This document shows positions 9,731 through 16,263 of a stretch of 64,000 bases of DNA, piece after piece. The notes beneath the pieces were generated by a model. The model had not been told where the DNA came from. It was given only the letters and a program-made list of their open reading frames with translations, and ran no database searches. The translations under genes were made by a program, and so were the position numbers. Within the stretch, counting starts at the first letter, position 1. Each line of letters starts with the position of its first letter. The stretch spans positions 248,001 to 312,000 of the forward strand of contig NZ_VIKR01000006.1 of assembly GCF_007004765.1 (NCBI RefSeq), in the 5' to 3' direction. The DNA is from Aliikangiella marina (GTDB taxonomy: Bacteria > Pseudomonadota > Gammaproteobacteria > Enterobacterales > Kangiellaceae).

Positions 9731-12034
9731 ATGAACAAGAAAGCTTCTTGGTTGGCTGTTGCTGCAGCCATGATGAGCCTGCAGGCAAATGCAAAAATTA
9801 TTCAGGGCAAAGTTGAAAATGAAAATGGCCGTGCGGTCGCTAACGCTGAAATTAAAGTTAGAGGCGCTGAGGTCACTGCAAAAACAGATAGCCAAGGTCG
9901 TTTTGAGATAGATTTGCCGATCGGTACTCATACGCTAGACGTTAAAGGTGGTAGCAGAGCGCATTTTCACCAAGTTGTTGAAGTGACCGAGACGCCTCAG
10001 GATACGGTTGTTCTTAGTATGGCGGAAGCGCCAGACAATCGACTAGTCGTTAAAGCCAACCCGCTAGAACATACTGCGCTTGATATGGCAACGCCGGCGA
10101 TTATTATCGCAGGTGATGAGCTAATTCTAAAGCGCTCGGACACCTTAGGAGACATTCTCCAAAATGAGCCGGGTTTAAGCGTTTCTTCATTTGGACCAGC
10201 TGTTTCGCGGCCTGTTATTCGTGGTTTAAGTGCAGGTAGAGTCAAAATAACCAACAATCAAATGATTGTGCAAGACGCTTCTAACACGAGTGCAGACCAT
10301 GACGTCAGTATTGAGCCATTGCTTGCCGACCAAATTGAAGTTGTTAAAGGACCTGCAACTTTACTCTACGGTAGCGGGGCGATTGGTGGTGTAGTTAATG
10401 CTGCGGACAGAAAAATCTCTGACGATACCATCGAAGAATTAACCGGAGGTATTGAGGCTCGTTTAGGTGATAGTGGTACGGGTGAACAGTCACTCATATT
10501 TACCTTAGACGGTGGTAACGAGAACTGGAATTGGCATATTGACGGTTATTCTAAAGAAACGGACAACATTGAAATACCGGTAGAAGCTGAATCTGAAGCA
10601 CTGCGTTTGTCGGAAGGTGAAGAGGGTGGCCCAGGTGAAGGCGGCGAATTCGAAAATACAGAAAACGAAACCACCGGTGGTAGCTTTGGGACCACTTACC
10701 TTGGTGATTGGGGACATGTCGGTTTTGCAATAAGCAGTGTTGATAAGACTTATGGCGTACCCGGTCATCATCATCACGAAGAAGAGGAAGAGGGTGGCGA
10801 AGAGCACGAAGGAGAAGAGCACGAAGAGGAAGGTGTTGCAATCGACATGCAACAAACTCGCTACGATATTCAAGCCGAATTTGATAACCCATTCAGTGGA
10901 ATTGAGACCTGGTTTGTTGGTTACTCTTACACTGACTATGAGCACGTTGAGCTAGAAGGCGATGAAATCGGTACGATGTTTGACAACGAGGCTTGGGAGC
11001 TGAAAACTTATTGGAAACACAAAAACCTCAGTGGTTGGGATGGTTTATTTGGTTTTCAGTTTACCGACAGAGATTTCTCTGCAATTGGCGACGAAGCTTT
11101 TGTTCCGCCGTCACTTACACAAAGTACGGCATTATTTGTCGTTGAAGAGAAAGAAGTTGGTAATTTAAAGTTAGAGCTCGGTTTGCGTTTGGAATCAAAC
11201 AAAGTAGAAGTAGAAGGTCAACCAGAGGTTGATGAAACTGGAGTAAGCTTCTCTTTTGGTAATGTATATACGATTTCTGAGTACAATAAGTTTGCGATTA
11301 ACTATTCGAGAGCGACTCGATTTGCTTCGGTTGAAGAACTTTTCTCTGAGGGTCCGCATGTAGCAACCGCTTCTTTTGAAGTCGGTAATCCTGATTTAGA
11401 TGTTGAAGTGTCGAACAACATTGATCTCTCTTATCGATTTGAGTCGGATAATCTTGTGGGTGAAATAAACCTTTTTTGGAATCAGTTCGAAGATTACATA
11501 TACGGTGCCGTAGTGACCGATACCGATCCGTGTTTACCAGCTGGCGCAGCACTCGAAGCGGAAGAAGAAGAGCTCTCTTTGGTCTGTTATAAACAGCAAG
11601 ATGCCGAGTTTAAAGGAGTTGAGTTGGATGTAACCATTCCTTTAACAAGCGAGGGCGCTCACCAGTTTGCTCTTGGTTTCATCGCTGACTATATCTCAGC
11701 TGAGTTCGATGATAATACCAATGTGCCAAGGATTCCACCGATGAAAACTGGCGCAATCTTAACTTACGATTTCAATGATTTTTCTGCCGACTTAAGCTAC
11801 ATCAATTATGCCAAACAAGATGATATCGGCGAAAATGAGTTGCCGACAAACGGTTTTGATATGGTCAACTTAGATTTAGCTTATCGAGTACCGTTTAATG
11901 GCGACGAGTTGTTTTTGTTTTTCAAAGGTCAAAATTTACTTGACGAAGAGGCACGCGATCATGCTTCTTTCTTGAAAGATTTGGCTCCGCGACCCGGAAG
12001 AAATTTTGTGATTGGTGCAAGATACACTTTCTAA
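9731..12034 (+). CDS. TonB-dependent outer-membrane receptor, probable zinc (ZnuD-like) type
   Basis: 767 residues: signal peptide to about residue 21 (QANA|KI), a carboxypeptidase-regulatory-like domain (about 23-95), a plug (about 115-225, with PGLSVSSFGPAVSRPVIRGL and VVKGPATLLYGSGAIGG) and a 22-strand barrel ending in the aromatic IGARYTF. An extracellular loop carries four His at 346-349 followed by a long Glu/Gly/His run to about 372. Such loops mark zinc receptors of the ZnuD type and would capture metal. Import would be powered by TonB-ExbBD, not encoded here. The receptor family is certain; the zinc substrate is inferred. Confidence 0.88.
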   Translation: MNKKASWLAVAAAMMSLQANAKIIQGKVENENGRAVANAEIKVRGAEVTAKTDSQGRFEIDLPIGTHTLDVKGGSRAHFHQVVEVTETPQDTVVLSMAEAPDNRLVVKANPLEHTALDMATPAIIIAGDELILKRSDTLGDILQNEPGLSVSSFGPAVSRPVIRGLSAGRVKITNNQMIVQDASNTSADHDVSIEPLLADQIEVVKGPATLLYGSGAIGGVVNAADRKISDDTIEELTGGIEARLGDSGTGEQSLIFTLDGGNENWNWHIDGYSKETDNIEIPVEAESEALRLSEGEEGGPGEGGEFENTENETTGGSFGTTYLGDWGHVGFAISSVDKTYGVPGHHHHEEEEEGGEEHEGEEHEEEGVAIDMQQTRYDIQAEFDNPFSGIETWFVGYSYTDYEHVELEGDEIGTMFDNEAWELKTYWKHKNLSGWDGLFGFQFTDRDFSAIGDEAFVPPSLTQSTALFVVEEKEVGNLKLELGLRLESNKVEVEGQPEVDETGVSFSFGNVYTISEYNKFAINYSRATRFASVEELFSEGPHVATASFEVGNPDLDVEVSNNIDLSYRFESDNLVGEINLFWNQFEDYIYGAVVTDTDPCLPAGAALEAEEEELSLVCYKQQDAEFKGVELDVTIPLTSEGAHQFALGFIADYISAEFDDNTNVPRIPPMKTGAILTYDFNDFSADLSYINYAKQDDIGENELPTNGFDMVNLDLAYRVPFNGDELFLFFKGQNLLDEEARDHASFLKDLAPRPGRNFVIGARYTF

Positions 12035-12161: not shown

Positions 12162-12188
12162 GGGCGCGATTCGTTGCGCCCCTTTTTG
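12162..12188 (+). terminator. Rho-independent terminator after the TonB receptor
   Basis: GGGCGC (12162-12167) pairs with GCGCCC (12176-12181) around an 8-base loop and is followed by CTTTTT. It ends the receptor transcript about 130 bases after the stop and separates it from the ECF sigma locus. The 127 bases before it show no gene. Confidence 0.8.
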
Positions 12189-12287
12189 GTGTTTCTGATT
12201 TTACTCAATCGCTATATCAGTTTCCTGTGTCGCAGCAATTGCTTCTCAATACCGATTCAAGCGAATTAAAAAATTATCTAAAAATAC

Positions 12288-12316
12288 CAAACCGAATTCT
12301 TTTATCTCCGTCATAA
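12288..12316 (+). promoter_or_regulatory. Candidate ECF-type promoter of the sigma factor gene
   Basis: CAAAC (12288-12292), 16 bases, then CGTCATAA (12309-12316). This has the form of an ECF promoter (an AAC-type -35 and a CGTC -10). The same two words at the same spacing recur at 13745-13773. Transcription would begin at about 12321-12325, almost on the start codon. Confidence 0.65.
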
Positions 12317-12324
12317 TCAAATGT

Positions 12325-12903
12325 ATGGAGTCAGAAAAACAGCTAATCGCTCAAGTTAAAATTGGAAATATCCAAGCTTTTCAGGAGCTTGTAGACACTT
12401 ATAGTCACAAGCTGTATTCGGCTGCCTACCGGATTTTAGGGGATAGAGCGCATGCCGAGGACTGCATTCAAGAAGTATTTTTAAAAATCTATCGTAAGAT
12501 TGATAGTTTTGATGACCGCTCAAAGTTTTCGACTTGGCTGTATTCGATTACTGTTAACACCGCTATTGATATGCAGCGGAGTATGGCAAGACATCAGCAT
12601 ACTCAGCCGCTGGAGACCAGTGTAATAGAGAAAACTGAATCCAAGCATCAAGAAACTCCTGAAGCCGAACATTGGCAGCGAGACCTATCCAAACTCACCC
12701 AAAAAGCATTAGCTGAACTAAGTGAGGATTTAAGAATGGCATTTTTGCTTAAGCACTTTGATGGGCGAAGTATTGAAGAGATAAGTCAAATCTTGGAAAT
12801 TAATCCCAACACTGTCAAGAACAGGATATTTAGGGCCGTTAATCAGTTAAAAAAACTAATGTCATTGAACCTTTCAGTATCTGAGGTAATTCCATATGAG
12901 TAG
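12325..12903 (+). CDS. ECF (RpoE-like) RNA polymerase sigma factor
   Basis: 192 residues. Region 2 spans about 10-90 (AEDCIQEVFLKIYRKIDSF, FSTWLYSITVNTAIDMQRS) and region 4 about 128-180, with the helix-turn-helix IEEISQILEINPNTVKNRIF. The layout is that of group IV sigma factors, which direct RNA polymerase to a small regulon on an envelope or other external signal. There is no ribosome site before the ATG at 12325, and the candidate promoter would start the mRNA within a few bases of it, so a leaderless message is likely. The stop overlaps the next gene by 8 bases, as expected for a sigma/anti-sigma pair. Confidence 0.92.
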   Translation: MESEKQLIAQVKIGNIQAFQELVDTYSHKLYSAAYRILGDRAHAEDCIQEVFLKIYRKIDSFDDRSKFSTWLYSITVNTAIDMQRSMARHQHTQPLETSVIEKTESKHQETPEAEHWQRDLSKLTQKALAELSEDLRMAFLLKHFDGRSIEEISQILEINPNTVKNRIFRAVNQLKKLMSLNLSVSEVIPYE

Positions 12904-13741
12904 TCCAAATGGTAAAGATTGGAGCGATGAAGATCTAATCTTATATTTCTATCAAGAACTTGACGAAGAAACTCGTAATAGACTCGGAATCTCATTGCAA
13001 ACATCTGATAAATTACGACAGCGTTACGAGAATTTAACTCATCATCTAGACGGTCAGTTAACGATTAATATTCCTCCACCAAGTGACCGCTTAAAACAGA
13101 ATATTATGGCAGGCATTTATCGAGAGTCACTACAAAGTGAAAAGGTTCGACAGGACAAATTATTAGAAGCTAACTCTCCTCGTGAAAAACTTATTTCTTG
13201 GAAACGCTACTTTCCCTCGGTTAAGTTGATTGGCGCGAGCGCACTTAGTTTGACTCTTGTTGTTGGGATATTTTACTTTGGACGTTGGAGTGCGACGATT
13301 CAACCAACCAGACCTGTAGCTGATAATCATCAAGAGCCACCAAGTCAACTAGCGGCCTCATTTACTGATGCGACAGCGACAAGAGTGCTTATGAGTCGGC
13401 TCAACGACCATTTAGAGACGAGTAATCGAGTTTTGACATTAGTATCAAATGGAAATGGCGATTTAAGCGCCCAAATTGATCAAAGAAAACTGTTGATAGA
13501 GGAATTGATCGTTTTTAATCGAATTTACCGACGCTTGGCCAAAAATAACGGCGACAATCAGCTCGCCGAACTGTTACGACAAATGGAAGTTTTATTGATT
13601 GAATTAGACAACATTAGCACGCAGCAAGCGACAGGAGAAAGCCTAAACGCATTGAACCAAATCAAAGAGCGCATGGAACAAGGCGATTTACTATTCAAAC
13701 TAAAGATCACCAAGAAAAAATTTAAAAATGATTTCATTTGA
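12896..13741 (+). CDS. Membrane anti-sigma factor-like protein
   Basis: 281 residues. The soluble N-terminus (1-105) contains the DEDLILYFYQELDEE helix region typical of anti-sigma domains but no zinc motif (no HxxxCxxC). One membrane segment lies at about 110-129 (KLIGASALSLTLVVGIFYFG). The outer part (130-281) is helical and hydrophilic, with RVLMSRLNDHLETSNRVLTL. The start overlaps the sigma gene by 8 bases, pointing to coupled translation. It most likely holds the sigma factor at the inner membrane until a periplasmic signal frees it. The role is inferred from position and topology; sequence recognition alone is weak. Confidence 0.65.
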   Translation: MSSPNGKDWSDEDLILYFYQELDEETRNRLGISLQTSDKLRQRYENLTHHLDGQLTINIPPPSDRLKQNIMAGIYRESLQSEKVRQDKLLEANSPREKLISWKRYFPSVKLIGASALSLTLVVGIFYFGRWSATIQPTRPVADNHQEPPSQLAASFTDATATRVLMSRLNDHLETSNRVLTLVSNGNGDLSAQIDQRKLLIEELIVFNRIYRRLAKNNGDNQLAELLRQMEVLLIELDNISTQQATGESLNALNQIKERMEQGDLLFKLKITKKKFKNDFI

Positions 13742-13744
13742 TAG

Positions 13745-13773
13745 CAAACTTCTTTTCGGTGACTCCGTCATAA
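13745..13773 (+). promoter_or_regulatory. Second candidate ECF-type promoter, before the repeat-protein genes
   Basis: CAAAC (13745-13749), 16 bases, then CGTCATAA (13766-13773), identical in words and spacing to the site before the sigma gene. It sits in the 69-base gap between the anti-sigma-like gene and the first repeat-protein gene and would start a transcript near 13780, leaving a leader of about 30 bases. Confidence 0.65.
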
Positions 13774-13810
13774 ACATTAATTCGAGCAACAAAAAACTAG
13801 GTAATGATAA

Positions 13811-15028
13811 ATGATTAAATATGTTAATCGATTCAAAAAGCAACCAAAACGCCGAGCCAATAACGGTGTGCTTGCGGCAATATTTGGTATCGCCATATCC
13901 AGTTGTGCAGCAGTTTATGCTGAAGAAGGATTATATGTTCAAGGGCAGAAACAGCTCGATAACAGGGAATGGTCGCAAGCTCAAAATTCGTTTAATCAAT
14001 TAATCGAAAAAGGCGAGGGTAAACAAGATGCGACTTTGTATTGGCTAGCTTATGCCTATTTTAAAGGTAAGAAAAGCCAACAAGCTTTGAACACTATTAA
14101 TACCCTAATCGACGGGCATCCCAATAGCAAATGGGTTGATGATGCTAAAGCGTTGCGTGCGGAGATTAAAGATGAAAGAGGGGAAGCGGCTGATATTTCA
14201 GATGATGAGCTAAAACTATATGCGATAGATTCATTAATGAGTGCTTCGAGTGAGCGTGCCTATAACGTATTATCGAAGATCATCAACTCAAACAATTCTA
14301 TCAAGATCAAAAAGCGCGCGATGTTTGTACTTAGTCAAACAGGATCTAAAAAGGGTTTTCAATTAGTTAGCGACATCGCTTTAAACAACGCGGAACCCGA
14401 ATTGCAATTGAATGCGATAGAAATGATGGGACTGGCCGGTGATTCCAATGCGCGCTTAGTATTACGTCAAGTAATTGATGAATCTAAAGATGACAAGCTC
14501 AGGCAAAAAGCGCTCGAAGGCTTAATGATTGCCGGAGACCACAAGACAATAAAATCGCTAGCAATGGATGGGCTTGAAGGGAAGCTGCAAACGCAAGCCA
14601 TTAATTTATTAGGCGTCATGGGACAGGGGGACGCTTTGTTAGAAATGTATCAATCAAATTCTTTTATCGAACAACGTGAGAATATTTTGGACGCTTTGTC
14701 CGTCGGTGATGGATATCAACAATTAGCGAGCATCATTAAAACAGAGAAAAGTGACAATCTCCGTGTCACTGCTATTGAGCGTCTGGGAATTATGAGTTCG
14801 AGAAAATCCGGTGATTTACTGACTGAGCTTTATCAATCAAGTCGTAATAAAAAGGAAAAGTCGGCGGTTATTCAAGCTCTATTTATCCAATCAAACGCTA
14901 AAGCTTTAATTCAAATTGCCAAAGCAGAAAAAGAGCAGAGTTTAAAAAGAAAGGCGATTCAAAGACTGTCAATGATAGATTCAGATGAAAGCATTGAGTT
15001 CTTCAGTAAAATTCTTAACCAGGAGTGA
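13811..15028 (+). CDS. Exported TPR/HEAT-repeat protein, ECF regulon candidate
   Basis: 405 residues. A long basic N-terminus and hydrophobic stretch (about 20-37, ending AVYA|EEG) act as a signal peptide. A TPR-like region (about 40-115, with ATLYWLAYAYFKGKKSQQAL) is followed by HEAT-like helical repeats (about 130-400) with recurring phrases such as KKRAMFVLSQTGSKKGFQLV and RQKALEGLMIAGD. No catalytic motif is visible, so a periplasmic binding or scaffold role is the best guess. It follows a candidate ECF promoter and overlaps the stop/start region of the next gene, so both are co-expressed. Confidence 0.75.
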   Translation: MIKYVNRFKKQPKRRANNGVLAAIFGIAISSCAAVYAEEGLYVQGQKQLDNREWSQAQNSFNQLIEKGEGKQDATLYWLAYAYFKGKKSQQALNTINTLIDGHPNSKWVDDAKALRAEIKDERGEAADISDDELKLYAIDSLMSASSERAYNVLSKIINSNNSIKIKKRAMFVLSQTGSKKGFQLVSDIALNNAEPELQLNAIEMMGLAGDSNARLVLRQVIDESKDDKLRQKALEGLMIAGDHKTIKSLAMDGLEGKLQTQAINLLGVMGQGDALLEMYQSNSFIEQRENILDALSVGDGYQQLASIIKTEKSDNLRVTAIERLGIMSSRKSGDLLTELYQSSRNKKEKSAVIQALFIQSNAKALIQIAKAEKEQSLKRKAIQRLSMIDSDESIEFFSKILNQE

Positions 15029-15033
15029 TTCCA

Positions 15034-16263
15034 GTGAACTTAAGTAAAAAATTCTTATTTCTTAATGTCATACTTGGCGCGTGCTTTGTTAACTTATCAA
15101 TCGCATCAGAATCGCTACAAGTAAGCTCAAGCATTGAAGCGACATTGAATGAAGTTGAAGTTAATCAAGAACAATGGTTTCAATATCAAGTTGTCATGGA
15201 ACCCAACAATGGCAGTCCTTGTTGCTACCACTCGAAAAATCAAAAGTATTGTGCGTTATCAGGTGAAAACAAGGGTAGGGGTAGTCTATATTCTAGCGAC
15301 TCAATCGATTCCGATTTACTTAATATTTACTTTCAATTAGATGTTGATGAAGTAACGGCGATGATTGTTGCCGGCGGAGCTTGTCCGGTAAATGTTGAAG
15401 GTACTTCAGTAACAGAACTTTTAAATGTGTCTAACCAGCAGAGCGTGGCCTTTTTAAGCGCTCAACTTGAGAAAGTTACAATTCCTAATATTACCGACAA
15501 AATCATCTCGAGCATTGCGATGCATAAAGGTGTCGATGCCCAACGCACGATCGAAAACTTATTGAGCGTTAGCAAGCATAGAGAAAAGGCTATCTTTTGG
15601 CTAGGTGCGGCCAGAAACGAAGCTGGCTATGAGGTCCTTGCTAGCCTGCTAGATGACGAAAAAGTCGGTCTAAAAACAAAAAAACAAGTCATATTTGCGT
15701 TGAGTCAAAACTCCAGCAAAAACGCTTTTCCTCGATTAATGCGATTAGCCAAGCAAAGTAGCGATCCAGTTATTAAAGGGGAATCGCTATTTTGGTTAGC
15801 TCAGAATAACGTAGAGGCGGCTTTTCCAGTAATAGAATCAATACTAAAAGGTTCACCTTCACGACGTTTAACTGATAAAGCCGTGTTTGCGCTTTCGCAA
15901 TATTCAGGTGAAAGAAGCTGGAGTAAATTAGTCGACCTAGCGCGCAACCATAGTGATTCTCATGTACGCGAAAAAGCCATCTTTTGGCTTTCGCAAAAGT
16001 CAGTACCGGGTGAGAAGTTTGATGCATTACCGATTCTTCTTAAGTTGGCTAATTCCAATGAGGCCAGAAAGATTAAAGAACAAGCGGTTTTTGGAATTTC
16101 ACAACTTAAAGATGAGAGGGCTGTTGAAGGACTGGTCTCATTGATTAACGGGAGTCGGGATAAGCGTGTTAAACAGCGAGCTAATTTTTGGTTAGGTCAA
16201 TCTGAACACCCGAAAGCGCTTGAATACATTGATACAATGTTGGTTTCTGCAAAGAATGAATAA
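15034..16263 (+). CDS. Exported HEAT-repeat protein
   Basis: About 409 residues. The start is taken as the GTG at 15034, which has AGGAG 8 bases upstream; an alternative GTG at 15025 overlaps the previous stop. A signal peptide (about 1-24, ending SIA|SES) leads into a domain with Cys pairs (SPCCYHS, KYCAL) and then at least six HEAT repeats of about 31-38 residues, with the recurring core KAIFWLSQ / KAVFALSQ / KQVIFALSQ. Repeat solenoids of this sort bind other proteins. With the preceding gene it forms the likely output of the ECF system. No known function is recognised. Confidence 0.75.
   Translation: MNLSKKFLFLNVILGACFVNLSIASESLQVSSSIEATLNEVEVNQEQWFQYQVVMEPNNGSPCCYHSKNQKYCALSGENKGRGSLYSSDSIDSDLLNIYFQLDVDEVTAMIVAGGACPVNVEGTSVTELLNVSNQQSVAFLSAQLEKVTIPNITDKIISSIAMHKGVDAQRTIENLLSVSKHREKAIFWLGAARNEAGYEVLASLLDDEKVGLKTKKQVIFALSQNSSKNAFPRLMRLAKQSSDPVIKGESLFWLAQNNVEAAFPVIESILKGSPSRRLTDKAVFALSQYSGERSWSKLVDLARNHSDSHVREKAIFWLSQKSVPGEKFDALPILLKLANSNEARKIKEQAVFGISQLKDERAVEGLVSLINGSRDKRVKQRANFWLGQSEHPKALEYIDTMLVSAKNE

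Follow-up and report, generated by a model that had tools for sequence, protein, structure and literature searches.

Twin copies of a candidate ECF promoter word, one before a sigma factor gene and one before two repeat-protein genes, are conserved in related loci

We analysed a window of 64,000 nucleotides of Aliikangiella marina DNA (G000:C6:248001-312000, from a genome of 5.3 Mb), in which a cassette encoding an ECF sigma factor, a probable anti-sigma factor and two repeat proteins lies 3' of a TonB-receptor gene. The original prediction had reported the same words with the same N16 spacing at 12288-12316 and 13745-13773, coordinates that proved exact, and the order that it described, a sigma gene and then two repeat-protein genes 3' of the second word, was borne out as well; the anti-sigma factor had been left unnamed. 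The features referred to below are these:

9731-12034, gene for a ZnuD-like TonB receptor, the first gene 5' of the cassette
12162..12181, + strand, terminator-like hairpin with T tail, 3' of the TonB-receptor gene (consensus match only)
12287..12316, + strand, predicted promoter 1 of the sigma operon: -35 CCAAAC, N16, -10 CGTCATAA (word and orthologue conservation, 7/7 two-promoter loci)
12318..12322, + strand, predicted transcription start of promoter 1, the 6th-10th base past CGTC (from spacing)
12325..12903, + strand, ECF sigma factor of 192 aa with regions 2 and 4 (domain and profile matches)
12896..13741, + strand, orf2, probable membrane-bound anti-sigma factor of 281 aa (position and family-model matches)
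13744..13773, + strand, predicted promoter 2: -35 GCAAAC, N16, -10 CGTCATAA (word and orthologue conservation, 7/7 two-promoter loci)
13799..13802, + strand, probable ribosome-binding sequence AGGT, 8 bases 5' of the TPR-HEAT ATG (read from the sequence)
13811..15028, + strand, probably exported TPR and HEAT-repeat protein of 405 aa (domain matches)
15025..16263, + strand, probably exported HEAT-repeat protein of up to 412 aa (N-terminal beta domain with four invariant cysteines)

Within the cassette, orf2 overlaps the sigma gene by 8 bases and promoter 2 begins 3 bases past the anti-sigma stop codon, while the true start of the HEAT gene may be the GTG at 15034 rather than position 15025. The hairpin at 12162..12181 would set the TonB-receptor gene apart from the sigma operon; the scan that returned it listed 6 such sites in the scanned region versus 3.1 expected. 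The ZnuD-like receptor itself scored 417.8 bits against the NCBIfam model (cut-off 950) and contains a His/Glu-rich stretch, HHHHEEEEEGGEEHEGEEHEEE, possibly reflecting a role in zinc uptake. A link between the cassette and zinc was dropped, given that other ORFs lie 5' of the cassette in the related genomes G001, G013 and G009. When plasmids were searched for copies of window positions 12200-14000, no match was found.

The sigma protein matched Pfam Sigma70_r2 and Sigma70_r4_2 with no region 3 listed over its 192 aa, which places it among the ECF (group IV) sigma factors, and its best PDB profile matches include chains of SigW, sigma-H and RpoE. For the product of orf2, comparison with the NCBIfam antisigma model gave E 2.9e-5 and 24.2 bits, far under the curated cut-off of 100, and the window protein had neither a Pfam match nor a PDB sequence match. 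Among the members of the orf2 family, 15 of 26 matched the NCBIfam antisigma model (E 0.01 or better) and one of 26 matched Pfam RseA_N (E 0.032), and an orf2-family gene adjoins the sigma gene in the 26 cassettes of the trees described below. Class I anti-sigma factors are described as having an N-terminal anti-sigma domain of four helices (PMC7406223), and the structure model of the orf2 protein places helices at 11-18, 24-36, 38-54 and 64-92, then at 118-129, with low confidence (mean pLDDT 54.7). A model helix that coincides with a hydrophobic stretch may, at this low confidence, be read as a membrane span, and the C-terminal part appears helical. We consider the orf2 product to be probably a membrane-bound anti-sigma factor.

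The TPR-HEAT and HEAT proteins are probably exported, judging by signal-peptide-like N-termini recognised by eye. The HEAT protein was modelled with a mean pLDDT of 83.6 as an N-terminal beta domain plus a HEAT solenoid, and a fold search returned general HEAT/ARM-type solenoids among the first 50 of 1368 matches. Its residues C66, C67, C76 and C120 are invariant in six of six aligned members. The N-terminal domain is conserved around a PCC or SCC motif, and Pfam names the HEAT part only. Exported repeats combined with conserved cysteines lead us to guess at a response to envelope-protein or redox damage.

The stretch common to both copies of the promoter word turned out to be slightly longer than first noted, reading CTCCGTCATAA, and the spacers of the two copies differ in sequence. 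CAAAC-N16-CGTCATAA was found twice in the window against a mean expectation of 0.01, and none of 100 shuffles contained two copies. The short word CAAAC-N16-CGTC was also found twice with 0.55 expected, two or more copies arose in 9 of 100 shuffles, and by itself this short word would not be significant in the window. Throughout the genome the exact full word has three copies, namely the two window sites and one that overlaps an opposite-strand ORF of 317 codons. A reading of the words as sigma-70 promoters was rejected: the sigma-70 promoter scan gave 9 sites versus 10.3 in shuffles, with no listed site over either word.

A close orthologue of the sigma factor (>200 bits; all other listed matches <100) was found in five of 40 genomes of the family. 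In the five corresponding loci, which are the window, G001 (L022), G013 (L024), G009 (L025/L052) and G004 (L023/L051 and L084), the order sigma, anti-sigma, TPR-HEAT is kept and followed by the second HEAT gene, which in G009 is cut by the contig end. CAAAC-N16/17-CGTC was present before the sigma gene and just past the anti-sigma stop in all of these loci (10/10 sites), and the same-family sites define the family word [CG]CAAAC-N15/16-[CT]-CGTC-[AT][AT]-A. One site was found blind: the 5' end of the G004 sigma gene is missing from contig G004:C95, and the genome-wide motif search located its promoter 11 bases 5' of an ATG reading MEQEQQ, at one end of contig C174. Two genomes of another family (G659 and G678, family f169) carry the cassette with AAC-N16-CGTC at both places (4/4 sites), so that AAC-N16/17-CGTC occupies both places in seven cassettes from two families (14/14 sites). 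In 7/7 of these two-promoter loci the second site lies at most about 45 bases past the anti-sigma stop, and both places are conserved although the spacers differ. Counted over 120-base upstream regions, AAC-N15-17-CGTC occurred before 6/6 sigma and 6/7 TPR-HEAT genes, where shuffles gave rates per region of 0.013 and 0.016, respectively; the full CAAAC word preceded 4/6 and 4/7. The single TPR-HEAT miss is L052, where the start codon used falls inside the promoter; the site is present about 24 bases past the anti-sigma stop. The original prediction had held that the recognition word can be read directly from the sequence, a claim that would fall if the motif were missing 5' of orthologues. The motif is present in all five same-family cassettes found, and the predicted word is strongly supported by the 10/10 same-family and 4/4 other-family sites and by its occurrence in 0/18 paralogues (see below).

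Beyond these loci, the anti-sigma profile was searched against 295 genomes of the order (an even draw), with matches in 2 (G000 and G013); 369 genomes of the class, with matches in 4; 398 of the phylum, with matches in 3; 109 of the order to which G659 belongs, with matches in 2; and 200 of the order to which G674 belongs, with matches in 44. In this last order, loci were taken from the best 20 of 46 matching places. One of the four class genomes, G386 (E 6e-5), is without the cassette and was dropped, its neighbours being read as another sigma factor and a DegP-like protease. The resulting 19 distant cassettes (L117 and the 18 loci L122-L139; L121 repeats L117, and L140 was left out with its sigma 5' end cut) carry TAAC before the sigma gene, paired with CGTC or CGTT in 15 and with CATC in 4, CATC having been accepted as a -10 only once the data had been seen. 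None of the 19 contains an AAC-N15-18-CGT site between the stop codon of the anti-sigma gene and the TPR-HEAT gene. Together with the window, L088, L089, L052, L116 and L120 they give 25 sigma genes (G004 L051, cut at its 5' end, was excluded and its promoter counted from L084), across which the -10 word is CGTC in 19, CGTT in 2 and CATC in 4, and the -35 word changes by clade (CAAAC, GCAAC, TAAC) in much the same place. The spaced pattern AAC-N15-18-CGT[CT]-N5-12-start fits 19 of the 25 sigma genes versus 0.20 expected from dinucleotide shuffles; outside it are the four with CATC (L117, L122, L123 and L139) as well as L135 and L136. A single branch separates the seven two-promoter loci from all other rows in both the anti-sigma tree and the sigma tree (unrooted, 26 rows each), with support of 100/100 and 100/99, respectively.

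The sigma factor matches 15 places in its own genome. We examined 18 stretches of paralogous ECF genes (G000, 5; G001, 8; G013, 5), the three genomes having about 57 paralogous matches in all, and found CAAAC-N15-17-CGTC in none of them, nor did the spaced pattern fit any of the 18 at any candidate start. The genome-wide search for CAAAC-N15-17-CGTC that the original prediction had proposed yielded 109 matches versus 157 for the reversed-pattern control; the recognition word is supported, a wide regulon is not. CAAACN{15,16}YCGTCWWA likewise gave 33 matches versus 33 in the control over the five sigma-bearing genomes, 10 of the 33 being cassette promoters, and neither count supports a wide regulon. 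In G000 alone the same pattern had 8 matches versus 3 in the control, and each of the six matches besides the two window sites overlaps an ORF of at least 90 aa. Matches outside ORFs exist in other genomes (for example L060, L071, L078 and L082), and two matches in G013 came without loci; family genomes without the sigma orthologue contain similar numbers (for example 8 in G012 and 7 in G037). With up to one mismatch, the full word showed a slight excess in its own genome (19 versus 11 in the control). For the short word, 91 of the 99 distinct matches examined (109 counted, 100 listed, two of these having the same sequence) fall within ORFs that are 120 aa or longer, and among the remaining 8 an ORF start follows within 60 bases in three, these being the two window sites and an MscS-like gene. 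Because the word has little or no genome-wide excess and most other matches are inside genes, the regulon for which we see support would be a local one, the cassette itself, and a few further targets with imperfect words may lie beyond it. The missing excess fits a tiny regulon, yet gives no independent support for promoter function of the words. At the MscS-like locus (L169, G000:C2:965900-968300), CAAAC-N16-CGTC stands 26 bases 5' of a gene named MscS-channel-like from a reading of its sequence, and 3' of an OmpA-like gene. This site was not counted as a target; it is without the AT part of the -10 and sits in an inverted repeat.

AAC/CGT words, a co-transcribed anti-sigma factor and autoregulation are described as hallmarks of ECF sigma factors (PMC8103513), and at 7/7 two-promoter loci an AAC/CGT pair separated by 16-17 bases and kept in orthologues precedes the sigma operon, as is expected of an autoregulated ECF sigma factor. 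We consider it highly probable that the words serve as twin promoters of the ECF sigma factor whose gene lies between them, and the arrangement would be an autoregulated ECF promoter of the textbook type whose conserved geometry is unusual. The words could also be recognised by a different ECF sigma factor encoded in this genome, so that the cassette would be under cascade control with no self-activation. The AAC/CGT words are common to many ECF sigma factors (PMC8103513) and the genome holds many paralogues, with its 15 places matching the cassette sigma; against this, the site tracks the cassette sigma gene across families with clade-specific -35 changes, none of the 18 paralogue stretches examined (of about 57) contains the CAAAC word, and among ECFs for which a target regulon was predicted, about 55% are given as autoregulated (PMC8103513). 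We regard such cascade control as improbable.

Slightly less probable still is the view that the second site is not a working promoter and that transcription reaches the HEAT genes solely by read-through from promoter 1, an arrangement for which the 19 distant cassettes with their empty anti-sigma/TPR-HEAT gaps might be cited, but which is at odds with the retention of the second site in 7/7 two-promoter loci despite strong divergence. That the two words arose by chance, or through the recent copying of a small piece of intergenic DNA, and do not function as promoters seems to us extremely unlikely: such an origin would agree with the recurrence of the short word in shuffled windows (two or more copies in 9/100) and with the location of 91 of its 99 distinct genome matches inside ORFs, but the spacers of the two copies differ, both places are kept in seven loci while the spacers differ there as well, the full word has an expectation of 0.01, and the orthologue comparison speaks strongly against it.

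For the twin promoters we infer recognition of the words by the cassette sigma factor, its release by a signal, leaderless translation and effector amplification. A membrane-spanning anti-sigma factor would retain the sigma factor in the absence of an envelope signal. Once released by such a signal, the sigma factor, with RNA polymerase, would read a -35 of [CG]CAAAC and a -10 of [CT]CGTC[AT][AT]A. Promoter 1 would then provide more sigma and anti-sigma factor from an mRNA starting a few bases before the ATG, constituting a positive feedback with a built-in brake. Promoter 2 would give additional transcription of the two TPR/HEAT genes, whose products are probably periplasmic, and these effectors would therefore be made in excess over sigma and anti-sigma factor.

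RpoE-RseA of E. coli and SigW-RsiW of B. subtilis are autoregulated ECF sigma/anti-sigma operons. The cassette resembles them in its two-domain ECF sigma factor, the adjacent probable membrane anti-sigma factor, the AAC -35, the CGT-type -10 and the predicted promoter before the sigma gene; unlike these systems, its word is without a clear genome-wide excess, a second candidate promoter with the same word lies between the anti-sigma and effector genes, and the -10 abuts the sigma ATG. The promoter of S. meliloti RpoE9 is given as TGTCACA-N16-CGTC (PMC3616915), which shares the N16 spacing and the CGTC -10 with the cassette but has another -35 word, and the accessible part of that paper mentions no HEAT cassette. 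No paper on the ECF sigma family of the cassette was found among the open-access articles searched, and PMC3174227, in its accessible part, describes no sigma/anti-sigma/HEAT cassette of this kind. The present analysis provides a predicted recognition word for this ECF sigma family, derived solely from sequence with a check across families, and ties the sigma family to two probably exported HEAT-repeat proteins that form a conserved pair. The cassette occurs in one-promoter and two-promoter versions, a natural contrast in which the uncoupling of output from feedback could be studied.

The position of the -10 relative to the sigma start codon is confined to a narrow range, the tetranucleotide ending 8-12 bases 5' of an in-frame ATG in 23 of the 25 sigma genes (L128 has an additional ATG at 5 bases past the -10), with a gap of 11 bases in the two-promoter loci and of 12 in the window. 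In S. meliloti RpoE9, CGTC is reported 9 nt before the mapped start (PMC3616915), and by analogy the predicted start at 12318..12322, 3-7 bases before the sigma ATG, should produce a nearly leaderless sigma mRNA. The prediction follows from the 8-12 bases between the -10 and the in-frame ATG; over the seven two-promoter loci the leader would amount to about 2-7 bases, with no room for a ribosome-binding site. In the window, promoter 2 would leave a leader of about 32-36 bases with an AGGT before the TPR-HEAT ATG. The gap thereby yields a clear prediction: the regulator mRNA should be nearly leaderless, and the effector mRNA, made from the same promoter word, should carry a leader.

Leaderless genes have been defined by transcripts that start <5 nt before the start codon, and such mRNAs are a minority; in C. 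metallidurans, 4.67% of the primary starts are of this kind (PMC7563307). Of 239 genomes of Gammaproteobacteria, 15 were predicted to have leaderless genes (PMC3160421); these genes are described as enriched in the transcription category and, in Gammaproteobacteria, belong mostly to Xanthomonadales and Legionellales (PMC3160421, PMC7563307). The sigma gene resembles these genes in its very short predicted 5' leader and differs from the reported cases in that the leader is predicted here from promoter position, and for one sigma family. It is a tentative idea, more doubtful than the twin promoters themselves, that the leaderless self-made sigma transcript is deliberate and has been kept over several families in three searched orders, with the feedback loop and the effectors placed on different modes of translation initiation. 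If true, loop gain would depend on the state of the ribosome under stress, and the two-promoter lineage would separate effector dose from the loop. The two sigma genes with no in-frame ATG near the -10 are L135, whose first in-frame starts are a TTG 18 and a GTG 39 bases past it, and L136, whose first is a GTG at 36 bases. In both, an ATG 8 bases past the site lies out of the sigma frame and opens a 14-codon frame overlapping the sigma start, possibly a leaderless leader peptide coupled to sigma translation.
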